DNA of 64,000 nt, taken from positions 62,001 to 126,000 of IMG/VR virus record IMGVR_UViG_3300009008_000008; one strand, written 5' to 3'. The DNA comes from a virus. The position numbers and the translations under genes are program-made. The notes below the pieces were generated by a model that saw nothing but the letters and a program-made list of their open reading frames with translations, was not told where the DNA came from and searched no databases. Below are positions 4,475 to 63,300 of the stretch, piece after piece; the stretch's first letter is position 1, and every line of letters starts with the position of its first letter.

Positions 4475-5619
4475 CGCCCTACTGCCCTCCCGGCTTGACT
4501 GACCAGACTCATCTGGACACCGCATACTCCAACCCGGCTGGCGTTGGCGCCTGCGTTCTCAGACCCATCCCCTCCGATAATGCCCTTCTTACGAGCCTGC
4601 CGTTTAAAACGCTCTGCATTCTCTTGGAGGTAGGACTCAGCGTTTGATAGTTGACTTTCAAGGTACCCTGTAACATCGGTGGACAGACTGATGGCTTGCC
4701 CTCCAAAGTCAAAGCTTTTCTCGCCTTCAGCCAGGTACTGACTACGGAGGGCCACTGCCTTGGCGGCTGTGATCCAGAAATGAGCAATAGGTCCTTTGGC
4801 CCGTGTCATGGAAAAGGTAGTGACCTGATCCAGAGTGTTAAAATAATCAGCCCCGCTCTTAAGGAACGACATCATGTCAACCATCGTATACTGGGCTTCT
4901 TCCAGGCCAGTATCCGTGTGGAGCCTGTTAATCCAATCACCGAGTTCCTTCTGAGCCTGCAAAATAGATGGAGTGGTCACAAATAGACGGCCAAGTTCCT
5001 GTTGGGGAACTCGATCGACTCTGTAGTTCCATATAACTGAGTATGGAACGAGGGAAGGGACCAACTTATTGGTCACTAGGTCAACGGCATCAACAAAGCG
5101 GTACTTGCCATTATCCCCGGCAGAGGAACGGATTACCTGCTTGGAGTAAAGGGAGACGTTATCTTCGTTGAACACCGTGACAGAAGCGGTTGGAATACGA
5201 CCACCAATAGGAAGGATACAAATCAGCTCAGCAGATCCCATGCCATATATCTCCACGGCATCCATAGGACCAAAGGGATCAGTAACAGGTGGATAAACCA
5301 GGAAAGACTCAAAATAATGTAGGTCTTCTTCACCGTCAAAGTCAAAAATCCACTTAACTTGGTATTCGGTACCATAGTCGTCGGCTTCGAGGTTATCAGG
5401 TAAAGAGAAGTAAGCGGTCGCAGTGGTACGTCGGGTCATGACCTCCACGTGTGGGGCAAACCCGCGGGCATACTCAACACCGTCTGGGTCTTGGAGGATC
5501 CAAGTCACTACGACGTGTTCTACCTCTTCCAACGGTTCTGGAATCTGGACGACAGCCCGCGCGGTTACTTGATGTCCTACCACCGCTTTGAGAATAGCCT
5601 CGATGGTATCGTGACTCAC
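4471..5619 (-). CDS. Probable virion structural protein
   Basis: This 382-residue protein is unlike any family I can name. The N-terminal about 200 residues are beta-rich (alternating VVVTWI, AYFSL, QVKWIF), compatible with an immunoglobulin-like or jelly-roll domain. The C-terminal half is helical with a Gly/Asn-rich tail. There is no enzyme motif. It overlaps both neighbours by 4 bases (ATGA junctions) in a tight minus-strand operon. A structural role is inferred from its architecture and neighbours. Confidence 0.65.
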   Translation of the reverse strand: MSHDTIEAILKAVVGHQVTARAVVQIPEPLEEVEHVVVTWILQDPDGVEYARGFAPHVEVMTRRTTATAYFSLPDNLEADDYGTEYQVKWIFDFDGEEDLHYFESFLVYPPVTDPFGPMDAVEIYGMGSAELICILPIGGRIPTASVTVFNEDNVSLYSKQVIRSSAGDNGKYRFVDAVDLVTNKLVPSLVPYSVIWNYRVDRVPQQELGRLFVTTPSILQAQKELGDWINRLHTDTGLEEAQYTMVDMMSFLKSGADYFNTLDQVTTFSMTRAKGPIAHFWITAAKAVALRSQYLAEGEKSFDFGGQAISLSTDVTGYLESQLSNAESYLQENAERFKRQARKKGIIGGDGSENAGANASRVGVCGVQMSLVSQAGRAVGR

Positions 5620-7184
5620 AATTCGGCTCCTTCAAAAGCACGTTGCATACTGCTAACCGAACTCATCATACGCAACAAGGGTTGTGGTGTGCGAACACCA
5701 ATCGACCGGAAATGCTGAATCATGATCGATGGGTCAATGTAGTTTTGTATGGCCGTGTCTGGAGTGAGCTTATCCCCACTGTAATGGCCCAACGCCTTTG
5801 CTACCTTCATCAGCAACAAACGAAATTCTTGTAGGGCCTCCTTTTGGGAAGGCGGGACCCCTTGTCTATGGTACCTGCTACCCTTCAATACCTGTTCCGC
5901 CAAAAGAGTACCGCGGAGGGTGCGTAACTTGTGGATGGTAACAGGACTTCCGATCCCTTTGAAATAAGCGTTCACCACGGTAGCAGAGACATGGGCTCCT
6001 GATGGTCCGCGAAACACCAAGTCATCTGGTTCCAGACCTTCTGTCAGGATCTTGAGCAAAGCCATTACCTTGCGGCTCCATTTGGTGTCCGGAATAATAG
6101 CATGCTTATGAGAAATACCGTCCTTGCCCTTATAATGCAGTACCGCAGTGTTTCCCTTAAGCTGGATATGTTTGGCCCTCAGCGTGGACAAACCATAGGT
6201 ACTCTGTCCTTTGGTCGAAGAACCAGGGGTCCCTATACGACCCTGTGTAAGGTAAGCAATTTCCACCAGCAAAGCCGGAATCTGCTTCTTGGAGCCATCC
6301 GACATCAGGTCACGGCGCCATTTCTTGAGAAGGGCTTCGATACCTTTGACCAGCTTAGCCACCTTGGCAAACTTTTCCTTGGTACGGGCCTTGTGGTACT
6401 TTTCGGTATAGTAATACTTGAACTTGGTCCCTTTTGGAGGCTGACCTTTAAACACCCAAGTGTCATCAGATTTGGGGTCATACTTAGGGTTCATTTCGAT
6501 CGTACCAGCAGGAACCCCATTAATCTTTTGTCGTGCCTTGGTATACAGGCCACCGTCTTCCCCAACAAATCCGGTAAACCCCTCTGGTATCTTGACCGCC
6601 ACCCCTTCTTGGGACGCAGCGGTCCTTACATCAGAGGCATCCAAGATTGGTTTACCGCTACTCCGAATGTGGTTAAGTAACCACTCTTTTGGTGTGCTCG
6701 GTGGGTCCTCATGGACAAAAAGCTTATTGATATGGGGGTCTTTCAATACACCTATGTTCTTATGAAACCGCTTGTAGGCGGCAGGGCTAGGCTTGGCAGA
6801 CAGGACGGAAAAGTCTTTCAGGAGAGCAAAATATTCCTCTGGAATTGAGTCCTCAGTGGCTCCGTATATATTAGGAAATTTGACCTTCAGGATGGAACCC
6901 AAAGCGAGTAGGGCCTTGCTTTCATCCGAGGCGGTGCCACCCTGCTCTAGCTTATCTACAACCTTGCGTAGAGGCGGGACTTTGATACCGAATTGGGTGA
7001 GGAAGTCCTCAGCTTGGGCAAAGAGCTGGTTCAAACGTACCCTTTGCTGGACCTGTAAGGGCCTTCCAGACTTGACAGAATAGATGATATATGCAAGGGT
7101 GCGAAAGAAGGAAAGGACGGCTTCAGGGGTTAAATCCACCTGTAACGCGATCTCTACATTGGCAAGAACCCGCAACTCTTTCAT
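5616..7184 (-). CDS. Type IB DNA topoisomerase
   Basis: This enzyme relaxes supercoils by cutting one strand through a 3'-phosphotyrosine, without ATP. The poxvirus/bacterial TopIB signature is complete in the C-terminal half: YYYTEKYHKART then EKF (DNA-binding bridge), R316 in QGRIGTPGS, TYGLSTL, K352 in LHYKGKDG, R421 in KLRTLRGT, H467 in LGHYSG and the nucleophile Y482 in NYIDP. At 522 residues it is longer than the roughly 320-350 aa bacterial enzymes because of an N-terminal helical extension of about 180 residues starting MKELRVLANVE. That start is shared with the gene at 4474. Its location among probable virion genes suggests it could be packaged. Assignment is firm; the role in infection is inferred. 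Confidence 0.92.
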   Translation of the reverse strand: MKELRVLANVEIALQVDLTPEAVLSFFRTLAYIIYSVKSGRPLQVQQRVRLNQLFAQAEDFLTQFGIKVPPLRKVVDKLEQGGTASDESKALLALGSILKVKFPNIYGATEDSIPEEYFALLKDFSVLSAKPSPAAYKRFHKNIGVLKDPHINKLFVHEDPPSTPKEWLLNHIRSSGKPILDASDVRTAASQEGVAVKIPEGFTGFVGEDGGLYTKARQKINGVPAGTIEMNPKYDPKSDDTWVFKGQPPKGTKFKYYYTEKYHKARTKEKFAKVAKLVKGIEALLKKWRRDLMSDGSKKQIPALLVEIAYLTQGRIGTPGSSTKGQSTYGLSTLRAKHIQLKGNTAVLHYKGKDGISHKHAIIPDTKWSRKVMALLKILTEGLEPDDLVFRGPSGAHVSATVVNAYFKGIGSPVTIHKLRTLRGTLLAEQVLKGSRYHRQGVPPSQKEALQEFRLLLMKVAKALGHYSGDKLTPDTAIQNYIDPSIMIQHFRSIGVRTPQPLLRMMSSVSSMQRAFEGAEL

Positions 7185-13019: not shown

Positions 13020-13514
13020 CTAGTGCCCTATGTGCCTCATATATACCACTTTAATTCCCTCTTTCACCACTTGGTCCTGCGTTAACCCTAGACCCTTCGC
13101 TGATAGTTTTAACATACGATGGGTTGCAGCGTCAAGCGTTGTCATGTATTTCACGGGTCGGTGGTCGGAACCCTTTGATATTTCGTTCGCTTTGGAGATG
13201 ACAGAAGCCAGATAAACCGCTTGGTCTACCTGGCCGGAACCCTTCCATTTGGAACAGAGTTGGGTGATATACTGGGTACCATACTTGACATACTGGGGAA
13301 TGCGTATCTGGTGGGTGTTATAATGACAAATCCCGCACAGGGTTACAGTAGGACCGGTTTCCCCTCCGCAATGCCGAGGTACCACATGGTGTTCTTCCAA
13401 GCCATCTTTGTCTTGGCAAATCCAACAGTGGTCCAACTTCAATGTACGCTTAATTTCCAAACGTTGTGCCCTTGTTAATACTTTAACTTGATGGAGCCGT
13501 GCGGGTTTGCCCAT
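13020..13514 (-). CDS. HNH endonuclease, probable free-standing homing nuclease
   Basis: This protein nicks or cuts DNA. A zinc-held beta-beta-alpha-metal motif is visible: CWIC, EEHHVVPRHCGGETGP, then CGICHYNTH. The C-terminal about 50 residues (TTLDAATHRMLKLSAKGLGL) look like a small ribbon-helix-helix DNA-binding domain. I chose the ATG at 13514 because it follows a near-perfect sigma-70 promoter at 13533-13561 with a leader of only about 12 bases. A longer frame to 13661 would run through the promoter and a 20-bp inverted repeat. It sits beside tRNA genes, a common place for such selfish genes. Confidence 0.85.
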   Translation of the reverse strand: MGKPARLHQVKVLTRAQRLEIKRTLKLDHCWICQDKDGLEEHHVVPRHCGGETGPTVTLCGICHYNTHQIRIPQYVKYGTQYITQLCSKWKGSGQVDQAVYLASVISKANEISKGSDHRPVKYMTTLDAATHRMLKLSAKGLGLTQDQVVKEGIKVVYMRHIGH

Positions 13515-13532
13515 ACCCAACACTACGACACC

Positions 13533-13561
13533 ATTGTAACATATACCAACAGAAGAGTCAA
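13533..13561 (-). promoter_or_regulatory. Sigma-70 promoter for the HNH gene
   Basis: On the minus strand, -35 TTGACT (13561-13556), a 17-base spacer, and -10 TACAAT (13538-13533). The HNH start codon lies 19 bases after the -10 box. Confidence 0.75.
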
Positions 13562-13601
13562 GTAAAATTTCATGACTCGAAAAACCCAAGGATTTCAATG
13601 T

Positions 13602-13710
13602 CTTGCCATAGAAGAGCCCAGATGGAGGCAGGCAACGTTGGGCATGGACGTTAGGCGGCACTCGGAGACCGGGGAGATCACACTATACACCTGGGCCCTT
13701 CTATGGCAAG
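13602..13710. repeat. 20-bp inverted repeat enclosing 69 bases
   Basis: The arms CTTGCCATAGAAGAGCCCAG (13602-13621) and 13691-13710 pair at 19 of 20 positions. On the minus strand a TGTAAATA motif at 13747-13754 lies about 37 bases upstream of the right arm, so the structure is probably transcribed as a long stem-loop RNA. I see no protein in it. Confidence 0.6.
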
Positions 13711-13869: not shown

Positions 13870-13972
13870 AAATCAAGATTAGACTAGAGATATGGACCTG
13901 CGTTTGGGTAGAACCAACAACCTAAGGCTTAACAGGCCCTCACTTTACCAACCAAACTACTGTGGATTAAGA

Positions 13973-14080
13973 TGGCACGTAGTAGGAATCGAACCTACGA
14001 TTCTCGCTTAAACGGTTGATCAGTCCGCTATCGGCGAGCACAGACTCTGCCTGCGCGTTTACCACTCCGCCATACGTGCC
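13973..14080 (-). tRNA. Abnormally long tRNA-like gene (108 nt), anticodon unclear
   Basis: The acceptor GGCACGT/ACGTGCC is perfect, the D arm GGCGGAGTGGTAAACGC is Leu-like, and the T arm GTAGG-TTCGATT-CCTAC is intact. Between the D and T arms are about 70 bases instead of the usual about 45 for class II. One hairpin has the stem CGCAG/CTGTG with a loop lacking T33. A second has a CTGATCA loop (GAT, Ile-like). A CTCGC/GCGAG stem encloses the latter. No CCA is encoded. It may be a tRNA with an inserted arm, a degraded tRNA or a tRNA-like RNA. It begins 9 bases after the ncRNA at 14090-14344. Confidence 0.6.
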
Positions 14081-14089
14081 ACAAAGAAA

Positions 14090-14344
14090 ATATGGTGTGC
14101 TATTACGCCAAAGAGGAGTTCACCCTTACCATCTCTGGGGTGGCTTACTACTTCACCAAGTGGCGCCCGTCGCCTATCCCTCATAGCAGGTGGTCCTGCA
14201 GAGCTCTTTATTTGGATGCCGCCACCCAAACGTTAGCCTAGAGGTTTCCCTGGTTCATGCCCTTGCAATCCAGGTACGTACTACAACTAACGGCCTTTGC
14301 CTCACTCTTTAAAGGATGGCTGCTTCTAAGCCAACCTCCCATAC
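14090..14344 (-). ncRNA. Structured RNA mimicking the 23S rRNA GTPase-associated centre
   Basis: Minus-strand bases 14337-14303 (35 nt, containing TTGGCTTAGAAGCAGCCATC and TTTAAAGA) reproduce helix 43 of the 23S GTPase-associated centre. Bases 14107-14095 (CGTAATAGCACAC) reproduce the helix 44 loop. In 23S rRNA these parts are continuous; here 195 nt separate them. An outer stem GUAUGG/CCAUAU (14344-14339 with 14095-14090) encloses both, and AAAGAG/CUCUUU closes the insertion. The insertion contains its own stems, for example CGTTAG/CTAACG, CCTGG/CCAGG and GCAGG/CCTGC. The RNA starts just after the stop of the gene at 14357 and ends 9 bases before a tRNA gene, so RNase P cleavage would set its 3' end. 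It may bind ribosomal protein L11 or translation factors. That role is inference. Confidence 0.7.
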
Positions 14345-14356
14345 CTTATAGTATAT

Positions 14357-16359: not shown

Positions 16360-16447
16360 TGGTAGGGCTGGAGGGAGTTGAACCCACGGTAGGTCGCCCT
16401 ACGTCGGTTTTCAAGACCGGTACCTTTAACCACTCGGCCACCCTTCC
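16360..16447 (-). tRNA. tRNA-Ser (TGA) with imperfect acceptor stem
   Basis: The anticodon arm CCGGT-CTTGAAA-ACCGA (one weak pair) reads TGA. The Ser-type D arm TGGCCGAGTGGTTAAAGG and long variable arm (GTAGGGCGACCTAC) are clear, and a CCA is encoded. The 5' acceptor GGAAGGG does not pair in register with the 3' CAGCCCT; only an offset AGGG/CCCT match is possible. The T stem has one T-T mismatch. It may be degenerate or need help to be processed. Confidence 0.75.
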
Positions 16448-60300: not shown

Positions 60301-63300
60301 CAACCTGGTAGGTACCATCGTTATTGGGCAGTTCGTTGTCGGTCCTTCGATTAACCTTGAGTGGTTTGGCCACGATGAAGTAGACTCAATTACCACGAAC
60401 GTGCCCAGTGATGACCTCCTGGGGTTTGCTCCTACCCTCGAGGACCTTGCAAGTGACCTTAGGGCTCAAGACCCCCTAAGGTTTGTCCTAGGTGCCCTCG
60501 AGGGATTGGTAAGCAGCGCCCCTGTTCAGGTGAATGACTTTGAGGTCGGTGGCTTTACAGTAGGCGAACAGTACCAAGGTACTACAGACGGGCATTTTTA
60601 CAAGGAAGCCCTGGAATTTCCCTTGGTAGGGTCCTTTGATGTAGGGGCCACTGTTATCGAACCCTTCGTTCAAACTCGGTTGTATGGCCCACTATTAGTT
60701 GGGGAATTTGACGTTGGGTCCACTGAGATCGGCTCTGACGTTGAGGCCTCCCGTCTTTACGGTCCGACGGTTAATCCTGTCGCTATTGGTCATTTCCGTG
60801 TACCAGAACAGGAAGCTTATTTCGAGCAAAGGTTTAACCTGAGTCCTTCTTTGCTGGTCGGGGAGTTTACCGTAACGTCCCATGAGGTAGGGGGCTTAAC
60901 AGTAGGGTCCTTCATTGTTGGAGGTGCCGACCATCATGTGATCGAACACCAGGACTTCATCTTTGACCTCACGGGTGTTGGTCTCCAAGAAGCCCTAACA
61001 TCGACTGTTGAACTGGGAACCGACCAATTAGAGGTCGGAGACAGCCAGACTTCGATTGATACCCCTTACTCTGAAATCGTCGGAAAATTTGTCGTTGGCG
61101 CCGCCACTGTTAGCGGGATGGCGGACACTCTTGATAGTTCAACAACAGGTTCCTACTTTGAGAGTGCCTATGTTCCAACGTTTGACAACCAAGTGGATCC
61201 ACATGAGTTCGTTCCTAATTATGTGGGGGCCTTCCTCGTCGGTGAGTTTACGGTAGGCTTCAAGACAGATTGGACCCGGTTATCAGAAGAAGTTGGGGTC
61301 GAAACGTCGGTATCTGCCACAGATGAATTGGATACCTTGTCGGCTGTTGAGACTTGGACGGATCCCTATAACTTGGACCCGATGCGTTTCGACTGGAGTG
61401 TTCTCGAAGACCCCGAAGTCGAACACCATCCTACTCTTGTTGGACAATTTATAATAGGTGCCCATACCCTAGGAAATCTGCAAGAGCGTCACACCGCTAC
61501 TGACGGGCATTGGGTAGGGGACGTTGCTCGCTTGGTCGAAGTTGGTGAGTTGCTTGTAGGAGCTTTTGACGTAGGACAATCTTTGGTTGTCCCTACTTTA
61601 CATCCCGTTGGTTCTGACCCATTAGGTATCAGCCACTTACGGGCCCCTCACCAAGAACACTCGATGGTCGAAGAATTCCAGTTGAATGCTGGGGTTATCG
61701 TCGGTCGGTTTAACGTTGACTTGGTGGCTGTAGACGAATCGTTGGTTGTTGGGGCTTTCAACGTTAGTGGGGCAGAGGCTAACGTACTACCACACAAGAA
61801 CTACATCACAGACCAAATAGGCGTCCAGGAAGTATCTAACATAGAACAACCAGTTGGGGTTGGCCAAGAATTCGACCATCAATTGACGGTTGCTTATGAA
61901 GACAGCCAAATGGCGTTTGTCGGGTCCTTCCTTGTGGGAGAGGCCAATATATTTGGTCACACATCGGTTCAAGAAGCGGTTATCGAGGAAGGGTTCAGCG
62001 ACACTGTTACACCTCATGTCGTAGTGGTTGGTCCTCGATTAGTCGGTACCTTTAACGTTGGTGCGGACTCGGACTGGGTGGGTGCTGACGTTCATGTGGT
62101 CTATGAAGAACCTATGACCTCAGATGATACGTTTAATGCCCTCCAGAGGTCCTACCTCGCGAGTTCCCTGGATGGACTACCCTTAGATCGTTTTGACTTC
62201 TCGGGCCTGCCTAACACCTCTCAGGCCCCTTTGCAGGTGAACGGATTTATTGTTGATGATGGAACGGTGGTTGGCCAGCAGTTAGCTCAAGCGTCAGACG
62301 GTCATTATACAAGGACCGAATTCCTGTCCGAGGGTATCCCACATCTTGAATCCACCGTTTATCCACTGCTGGTTGGCGATTTCACGGTTGGGGTAGCAGA
62401 TGCCATAGGCGACCAGATTGCGGTTGATGAAGAGGTAGATAGTTATCAGTTCGAGAAAGTGCTAGAAGGGCCCGCTGGAGGTCTTCCAGGCGTGTCCCAT
62501 CTGACGTTCGGGGACCAAGACGTTGCCTATCAAGAAACTTGTGATGTTAATCCACGTGCCACCGTTGGGTCTTTTGTGGTCGGCTCTAACTTGGTCGGTT
62601 CTTTGGTCGTTAATGAATTCCTGGTGGGTGCTGCCGACTACTATGTAATGAGCGATGAGGATTGGACCGCCTCTGATCAGATCACTCACCTGGAACAAGG
62701 CGAAGCCTTCGATGACACCGCTCCTCCGATGGATTCTGCTTTTACCACAGGAACGCAAGGTACCTCGGTTACAACTCCGGTGACCCAGACCGTAGGATCT
62801 TTCATCGTTGGACAGGACATCGTTCGAGGACATACCTGCCAGTTAGACATTCACCAGGAATTGGGGGACGCGATCTTCCACGATGAATATAACACTTCAA
62901 TATTGGTCGGAGACTATCCTGTCGGGGCTTTTGTTGTCGGGCACCAAAATACCGATTTTCTCTCTGACATAAGGCAAGCGGTTGGCTTTGACCAACAGGT
63001 GGCTTCTGATGACAACCACCATGTGATGGCCGAAACGTCTTTGGAATCTACCCATGTAGGACTCCAGGAACTACCCCTACAGCTTTTGTCGGACCTACAT
63101 ACCATCGAGATCCCACAAATGGTTGGGCAGTTTGTTGTAGGTTCAGAATCTATGGTGGGTGCCCAGCAAGTAACAGGAACATCTGACGGTCACCACATGG
63201 TGCCACGGCTGGAGGTTCTTGAAGTCGGGGCTTTTACAGTCGGTTTTGTGTTGGTAGGATCCTATGAAGTACACGAAGAGTTGGTGCGTCCCTCAGATAT

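Follow-up and report, generated by a model that had tools for sequence, protein, structure and literature searches.

A stand-alone phage RNA resembling a split GTPase-associated centre of 23S rRNA, and its possible action as a decoy for uL11

Tailed phages carry a widespread, unannotated family of RNA elements that reproduce the GTPase-associated centre (GAC) of 23S rRNA in two halves. One member lies on the minus strand at 14087–14347 of the window, by which we mean the whole 64,000-nucleotide stretch of DNA that was analysed (positions 62,001 to 126,000 of IMGVR_UViG_3300009008_000008, a virus record of 128,047 bases, with phage-type genes in the window for topoisomerase II, a QueC-like protein and a Holliday junction resolvase). 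The original prediction, made from the letters of this DNA, was of a phage RNA imitating the GAC in split form; it is supported because the covariance search was significant and because the relatives keep the loops of helices 43 and 44 (H43, H44) and show compensatory exchanges both in their closing stem and at the foot of the insert. For its function we tentatively favour, with a probability of about 0.45 and judging from sequence and pairing, a phage-encoded decoy that would capture host uL11 and so dampen L11-dependent processes, RelA activation among them.

Read along the minus strand from 14347 to 14087, the window element starts with one strand of the closing stem and GGUUGGCUUAGAAGCAGCCAUCCUUUAAAGAGU, continues with 195 nt and then GCGUAAUAGCACA, and finishes with the other strand of that stem, and both of the 23S-like stretches that had been predicted (14337–14303 and 14107–14095, minus) are present. 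In E. coli numbering, for which the reference was what we take to be the E. coli 23S sequence, 14337 is 1057, 14304 is 1090, 14108 is 1091 and 14095 is 1104, which places the insert at 1090/1091. The closing stem P1 was located by the model match and covaries in relatives; its 5' strand (1047–1055) is at 14339–14347 and its 3' strand (1104–1112) at 14087–14095. Originally assigned 6 bp, this stem can reach 9 pairs with G-U included. The H43 hairpin GGC-UUAGAAGCA-GCC (1062–1076, with A1067 at 14327) occupies 14318–14332, and is followed at 14304–14317 by 1077–1090, which hold the tertiary pair 1082:1086 (U-A in the window copy) and the H44 5' side GAGU. The H44 insert (14109–14303) measures 195 nt, as had been claimed, and consists of a basal stem, a variable arm, a CACCCC-tetraloop-GGUAAGG hairpin near the 3' end and a UUUG linker. 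It is followed at 14095–14108 by the H44 loop half GCGUAAUAGC with ACAC (1091–1104), in which A1095 is 14104 and A stands at 1101 where rRNA has U. The tRNA-like gene that the element was said to precede was found 7 nt downstream on the same strand, outside the element (13974–14079, minus; Rfam tRNA 43.7 bits); it is 106 nt long, has an odd middle and was not called by ARAGORN.

A cmscan of 601 nt matched the Rfam model LSU_rRNA_bacteria (RF02541) at 14341–14288 with 21.8 bits (E 1.2e-4), covering only the first half of the element and leaving the second half unaligned; the gathering score is 50. No Rfam family reached gathering over the window element in the Rfam scan, and across the whole 64-kb window no rRNA did so, tRNAs being the sole gathering-level matches, in agreement with the prediction that no rRNA gene surrounds the element. 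By the measure of a full rRNA gene the element thus falls outside RF02541 (21.8 vs 50 bits, with no window rRNA at gathering); by GAC sequence and fold it falls within, both halves being there and the GAC pairs covarying in relatives. A covariance model built from 47 relatives, with the window phage excluded and at most 22% of 8-mers common with the window element, found the element (14087–14347, minus) as its single match at E up to 10 in the 64 kb, with 96.4 bits and E 1.1e-28. The lone window sequence is of ordinary fold stability (z −1.1; 27 of 200 shuffles were as stable or more), and the closing stem and the H43 and H44 hairpins all form in its minimum-energy fold.

At least 216 copies (at least 158 when dereplicated) were collected by a relaxed finder in 215 sequences. 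They came from IMG/VR (196), named phages (11) and genome contigs (8), plus the window; 208 are viral or phage, and the family is mainly viral. Scanning IMG/VR with the 5' half gave at least 119 matches, and three narrower scans gave 33, 40 and 31, partly overlapping. The 5'-half scans and the first named loci together yielded at least 166 split elements, at least 123 dereplicated, some of these 123 having doubtful 3' partners (L010, L108, L148 and the first Astolliot copy). An independent scan used the 3' half alone and gave, among the matches listed, 78 sites in loci new to it, of which 64 have a 5' half with at most 5/16 mismatches and at least 4/6 closing pairs. The remaining 14 fail this pairing test: in seven the 5' half has no more than three mismatches and there are fewer closing pairs in the register tested, and among the 14 are L191, with a diverged yet compensated H43, L208, L224 and L231, with the 3' sequence of L191, L213 and L249, near a sequence end, and L222, which resembles coding DNA.

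Eleven named phages gave full-length model matches of 81.8 to 108.3 bits (Astolliot, pf16, UNO-G1W1, XacN1, Aeromonas 4_4572, GAP32, XaC1, Kaldavass, XbC2, BF and CBB), and several of these are not independent of the training set: Milchi, a member of it, resembles Astolliot, and L007 resembles UNO-G1W1. Six Erwinia SNUABM phages carry relatives, by blastn only. Distant blastn against 50,697 phage records returned relatives without RNA annotation, plus host 23S contamination (two further blastn queries used half-elements), and RNA was annotated at the element in 0 of the 12 named-phage records inspected. From 84,980 bacterial and archaeal genomes, 37 matches to the 3' half were obtained; 8 are elements by their 5' half and the model, and the other 29 scored at most 22.4 bits on the family model. 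The intact 23S sequences L119, L124 and L304 scored 47–57 bits, as expected of homologues.

Several loci deserve separate mention. Two candidates were rejected: L265, from an unsplit scan, looks like chance, and Paenibacillus Pd_22F has an intact 23S GAC instead. At the locus in Methylophilales phage Melnitz the element was not found. Vibrio phage 2.275.O (L183, 2492 onwards) combines a 5' half with a 3' half that looks decayed; an HNH nuclease gene follows, and the family model was matched only partially (43.1 bits). Just upstream of the element in Astolliot and Milchi (L120, about 2655–2995; L187, about 2155–2495) there is seemingly a strongly diverged second copy with an H43 of the GGGCUUARAGGU/AGAAGU type, in Astolliot also with an AACAGG/CCUGUU closing stem by eye; its match to the family model was partial, at only 14.4 bits. 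One locus, L038, has two elements (5124–5362, 67.1 bits; 5441–5708, 85.1 bits), and L251 has two 3'-half sites. The elements L097 653–746 and L108 4387–4441 (minus) have the flanks AAGACAGCCAGG and AAGACAACCAGG, which in our estimation resemble rRNA helix 42; the 3' half was not found in L108.

Covariation is seen in the closing stem, H43, the stem at the root of the insert and the tertiary pair 1082:1086 of the GAC, and the fold is under selection. In the alignment of 47 elements (window phage excluded) the named structure was paired in 94.2% of cells, compared with 68.1% when shuffled and 35–56% when slid; cells changed on both sides numbered 299 vs 95 shuffled, and the covariation score was 0.663 vs 0.157. 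Pairs with a double change were in only slight excess in these 47 elements (16 vs 14.5 shuffled, with 27 of 500 shuffles reaching 16). The relaxed finder scored 14 consensus bases together with pairs 1051–1055/1104–1108 and those of H43 and the H42 side, leaving the outer pairs 1048–1050/1109–1111, the pair 1082:1086, and likewise the insert stem and linker, free of its selection. Among the matches listed, the outer closing-stem pairs formed in 142, 133 and 120 of 158 copies (shuffle means 67, 65 and 62), and 1082:1086 was U-A in 73, C-G in 48 and A-U in 19, or 140 of 158 (shuffle mean 86). At 1064:1074, A-U replaces C-G in six of these 158 listed copies. The closing stem of the phage element is unlike that of rRNA.

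Many copies lie beside tRNA genes. Among the matches listed, 55 of 157 are within 20 nt of a tRNA gene, where 4.1 would be expected at random, and 91 of 157 are within 500 nt, the nearest tRNA being on the same strand in 91/91 (random expectation 49 to 58); at 49 of the 157 loci ARAGORN called no tRNA in the flanking stretch examined. Neighbouring proteins did not recur: in the 150 of 258 candidate neighbour ORFs that were scanned, no Pfam family was matched more than twice and no PHROG more than three times, HNH and homing endonucleases of various families being among the commonest matches. The same-strand tRNA neighbours and the lack of a recurrent protein family in this sample fit an RNA acting in trans. 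Of the 157 listed elements, 31 overlap an ORF of 100 aa or more, on whichever strand; hypothetical proteins are annotated over the element region, antisense in two inspected phage records and on the same strand in a third, so the annotation there would be put right by a proper model of the RNA. In Xanthomonas phage XacN1 (L123, 2331–2981) the element is preceded, at a distance of 14 nt, by the end of a 2'-5' RNA ligase gene, and an RNA_ligase domain, of a different family from the XacN1 ligase, occurs in 2 of the 150 neighbour ORFs.

The insert was predicted to be structured, and in relatives its basal stem does covary, with pairs formed in 157, 156, 143 and 97 of 158 copies among the matches listed (shuffle means 116, 95, 67 and 62). 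In the same listed copies the insert ends in UUUG (134) or UUUA (16), and in 32 of 158 the CACCCC-loop-GGUAAGG hairpin occurs close to the 3' end of the insert, in most cases at a constant distance, against 1 of 158 when shuffled. A second insert type was seen in 9 of 158 (L005, L015, L017, L040, L047, L163, L170, L212 and L296), with GCGAAAUG and UGAUGUG segments opposed, and may be an internal-loop motif. Nothing convincing as a further piece of rRNA was found in the insert by Rfam scans of the window element and eight sample loci; a short complementarity between the A-site finger and the insert motif GGUAAG was considered and dropped.

The size of this insert (median 140 nt among the matches listed), its own covarying basal stem and its recurring modules raise an alternative in which the GAC fold would be a rigid module or protective cap, and the real business would be done by the variable arm in tRNA-array processing, packaging or RNA assembly. 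ROOL and GOLLD, unrelated phage RNAs described as often lying near tRNA islands (PMC12286853), would be in line with it. We consider this unlikely, as the arm is the least conserved part, ranging from 28 to 445 nt among the matches listed, and is missing in L010, whereas the GAC core bases are kept. The fold of L010 is made up of the closing stem, H43 and H44 (z −2.55; 34.9 bits on the family model), and the existence of this compact copy suggests that it is the GAC which is essential.

Conservation of H43 was judged on the 3'-half set because the first scans had fixed the H43 loop; the set of 57 distinct copies, among the matches listed, was chosen by a filter weighing H43 bases equally. In it U1060, G1071 and C1072 are kept in 57/57, A1073 and A1077 in 54/57, A1067 in 43/57, A1070 in 40/57 and G1068 in 39/57. 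A1101 is found in 118 of 123 phage copies among the matches listed, and U1101 in all 86 bacterial genomes with a pattern-matched 23S. These 86 comprise 39 of 198 genomes from the phylum of G002 (locus L288), where the pattern fixed A1067, and 47 of 150 from the phylum of G001 (locus L301), where the pattern left 1064–1070 free; non-matching genomes carry no information. Positions 1087–1090, bases that the finder scored, are GAGU in 151 of 158 phage copies among the matches listed; the bacterial bases are GAAA or GATA in the phylum-of-G001 matches and GAGU in some phylum-of-G002 matches. From such differences between rRNA and phage bases we infer that the copies in Pseudomonas and enterobacteria phages are not recent captures of host rRNA.

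These bases also bear on a reading that we rank as slightly more doubtful than the arm-centred one: the RNA would imitate the side of the ribosome that contacts factors and tRNA, and would itself bind translational GTPases, RelA complexes or tRNA elbows, partners that touch A1067 on the ribosome. Among the matches listed, 116 of 123 copies keep A1095; both loops are retained as well and elements adjoin tRNA genes, all of which would suit this reading; in addition, the A/R tRNA is described as stacking on A1067 in the RelA complex (PMC5829649). Against it, A1067 is present in only 43 of the 57 listed copies and 1068–1070 drift too, whereas the 47/47 matching genomes from the phylum of G001 all have A at 1067 and read UUAGAA or UCAGAA throughout. 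We also know of no case in which an isolated GAC holds factors firmly, and we count this against direct factor binding.

In a further alternative, the element would be a decoy for some agent of host defence or of competition directed at the GAC, such as thiopeptide-like compounds, methyltransferases or a toxin; some phage tRNAs do counter tRNA-cleaving defences. To our knowledge there is no anti-phage nuclease aimed at the GAC, which weighs against the proposal. Thiopeptides and the Tsr/NHR methyltransferases are reported to recognise the GAC domain (PMC4409310), but A1067, the key base for thiopeptides and methylation, is not strictly kept, and we regard this explanation as improbable. An origin of the element as a pseudogene, or as host 23S rRNA contaminating the assembly, which the ordinary stability of the lone sequence and the occurrence of true 23S in the collections (L119, L124) might suggest, is highly implausible and already contradicted for the family by covariation over 158 copies among the matches listed, by the phage-specific A1101, different closing stem and UUUG/UUUA linker, and by its presence in complete named phage genomes, several times between or beside tRNA genes.

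In the uL11 decoy model that we favour, tailed phages would make the element as a stand-alone noncoding RNA, transcribed together with tRNA arrays and probably cut out of them; it would take up the GAC tertiary fold and expose the uL11-binding surface. Free copies would bind host uL11, either newly made or exchanging, and the ribosomes of infected cells would be depleted of L11, the predicted outcome being a reduced RelA-dependent synthesis of (p)ppGpp and a change in factor function; the variable H44 arm may tune stability, localisation or a second partner. Ribosomes without L11 are viable yet relaxed. The core bases kept in the phage copies presumably shape the uL11 platform, by our understanding of the uL11–RNA contacts. 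Core sequence and pairing are consistent with uL11 binding, and this is favoured over factor or tRNA contact because the core bases are conserved, in contrast to the drifting, exposed A1067; if such a mimic dampens RelA, L11 is a more plausible route for this than A1067. The isolated 58-nt GAC is described as folding and binding L11 in vitro (PMC10161774). OLE RNA, for which sequestration of RpsU is proposed, offers a bacterial precedent for a structured RNA of this kind (PMC12286853).

Some points weigh against the decoy, or make demands of it. The H44 insert might hinder the GAC fold, and high expression would be needed because uL11 is abundant; also against it are the z of −1.1 for the lone sequence and the 49 of 157 loci, among the matches listed, without an ARAGORN tRNA. 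The broader proposition, that tailed phages encode an independently evolving copy of an rRNA domain with an evolvable arm, acting in trans to strip or deny host uL11 and thereby to give relaxed, phage-favourable translation, appears to us possible but still short of an even chance.

With the 23S GAC (H43/H44, the 58-nt L11-binding domain) the phage element has in common the H43 hairpin and loop, the H44 loop, the pair 1082:1086 and the bases U1060, G1071, C1072 and A1098; it differs in being a stand-alone locus, in the 28–445 nt insert at 1090/1091, in its closing stem, in having A1101 for U1101 and in its variable A1067. GOLLD and ROOL are likewise structured phage RNAs often near tRNA islands, but the phage element is far shorter, and the account of them in PMC12286853, as far as it goes, describes no rRNA domain. 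OLE RNA, a bacterial structured RNA proposed to sequester the ribosomal protein RpsU (PMC12286853), differs in structure and in hosts. The Rfam models for GOLLD, ROOL and OLE gave no match in the window at gathering, in the 601 nt at E up to 10, or in eight sample loci at E up to 1. Ribosomal-protein leaders are mRNA leaders bound by ribosomal proteins, some of which resemble rRNA. The phage element is unlike such leaders (mentioned in PMC2864571) in its position and in its lack of a recurrent downstream gene, no recurring gene having been found in the 150 of 258 neighbour ORFs. The T4 species 1 and 2 RNAs (rnaC and rnaD) are likewise small stable RNAs in a phage tRNA cluster, and were rejected as relatives: no GAC halves were seen on reading, and the family model gave no match in the T4 stretch L176 at E up to 1.

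No earlier description of such a phage RNA was found in a limited literature search, which covered open-licence articles and no preprints, so that an account elsewhere is possible. Isolated phage genomes with the element include Pseudomonas phages pf16, Astolliot and UNO-G1W1, Serratia phage BF, Cronobacter phage GAP32 and Pectobacterium phage CBB, and the family supplies natural variation in a small, intensively studied RNA tertiary fold. If the uL11 decoy is true, viruses would be imitating a functional centre of rRNA with an RNA that stands alone, phage tRNA arrays would be tied directly to the manipulation of ribosomes, and the handling of L11 and of the stringent response by phages would become testable.

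Three other features of the window were noted on the minus strand. Degenerate or tRNA-like genes, neither called by ARAGORN, lie at 13902–13959 (degenerate; 24.7 bits, below gathering) and at 16363–16444 (33.7 bits). A long hairpin at 13602–13710, whose outer stem has 23 pairs, is more stable than all 200 shuffles (z −5.3); it lies close to tRNA genes, partially overlaps the start of an ORF (13020–13661), and is a second candidate for a structured RNA.
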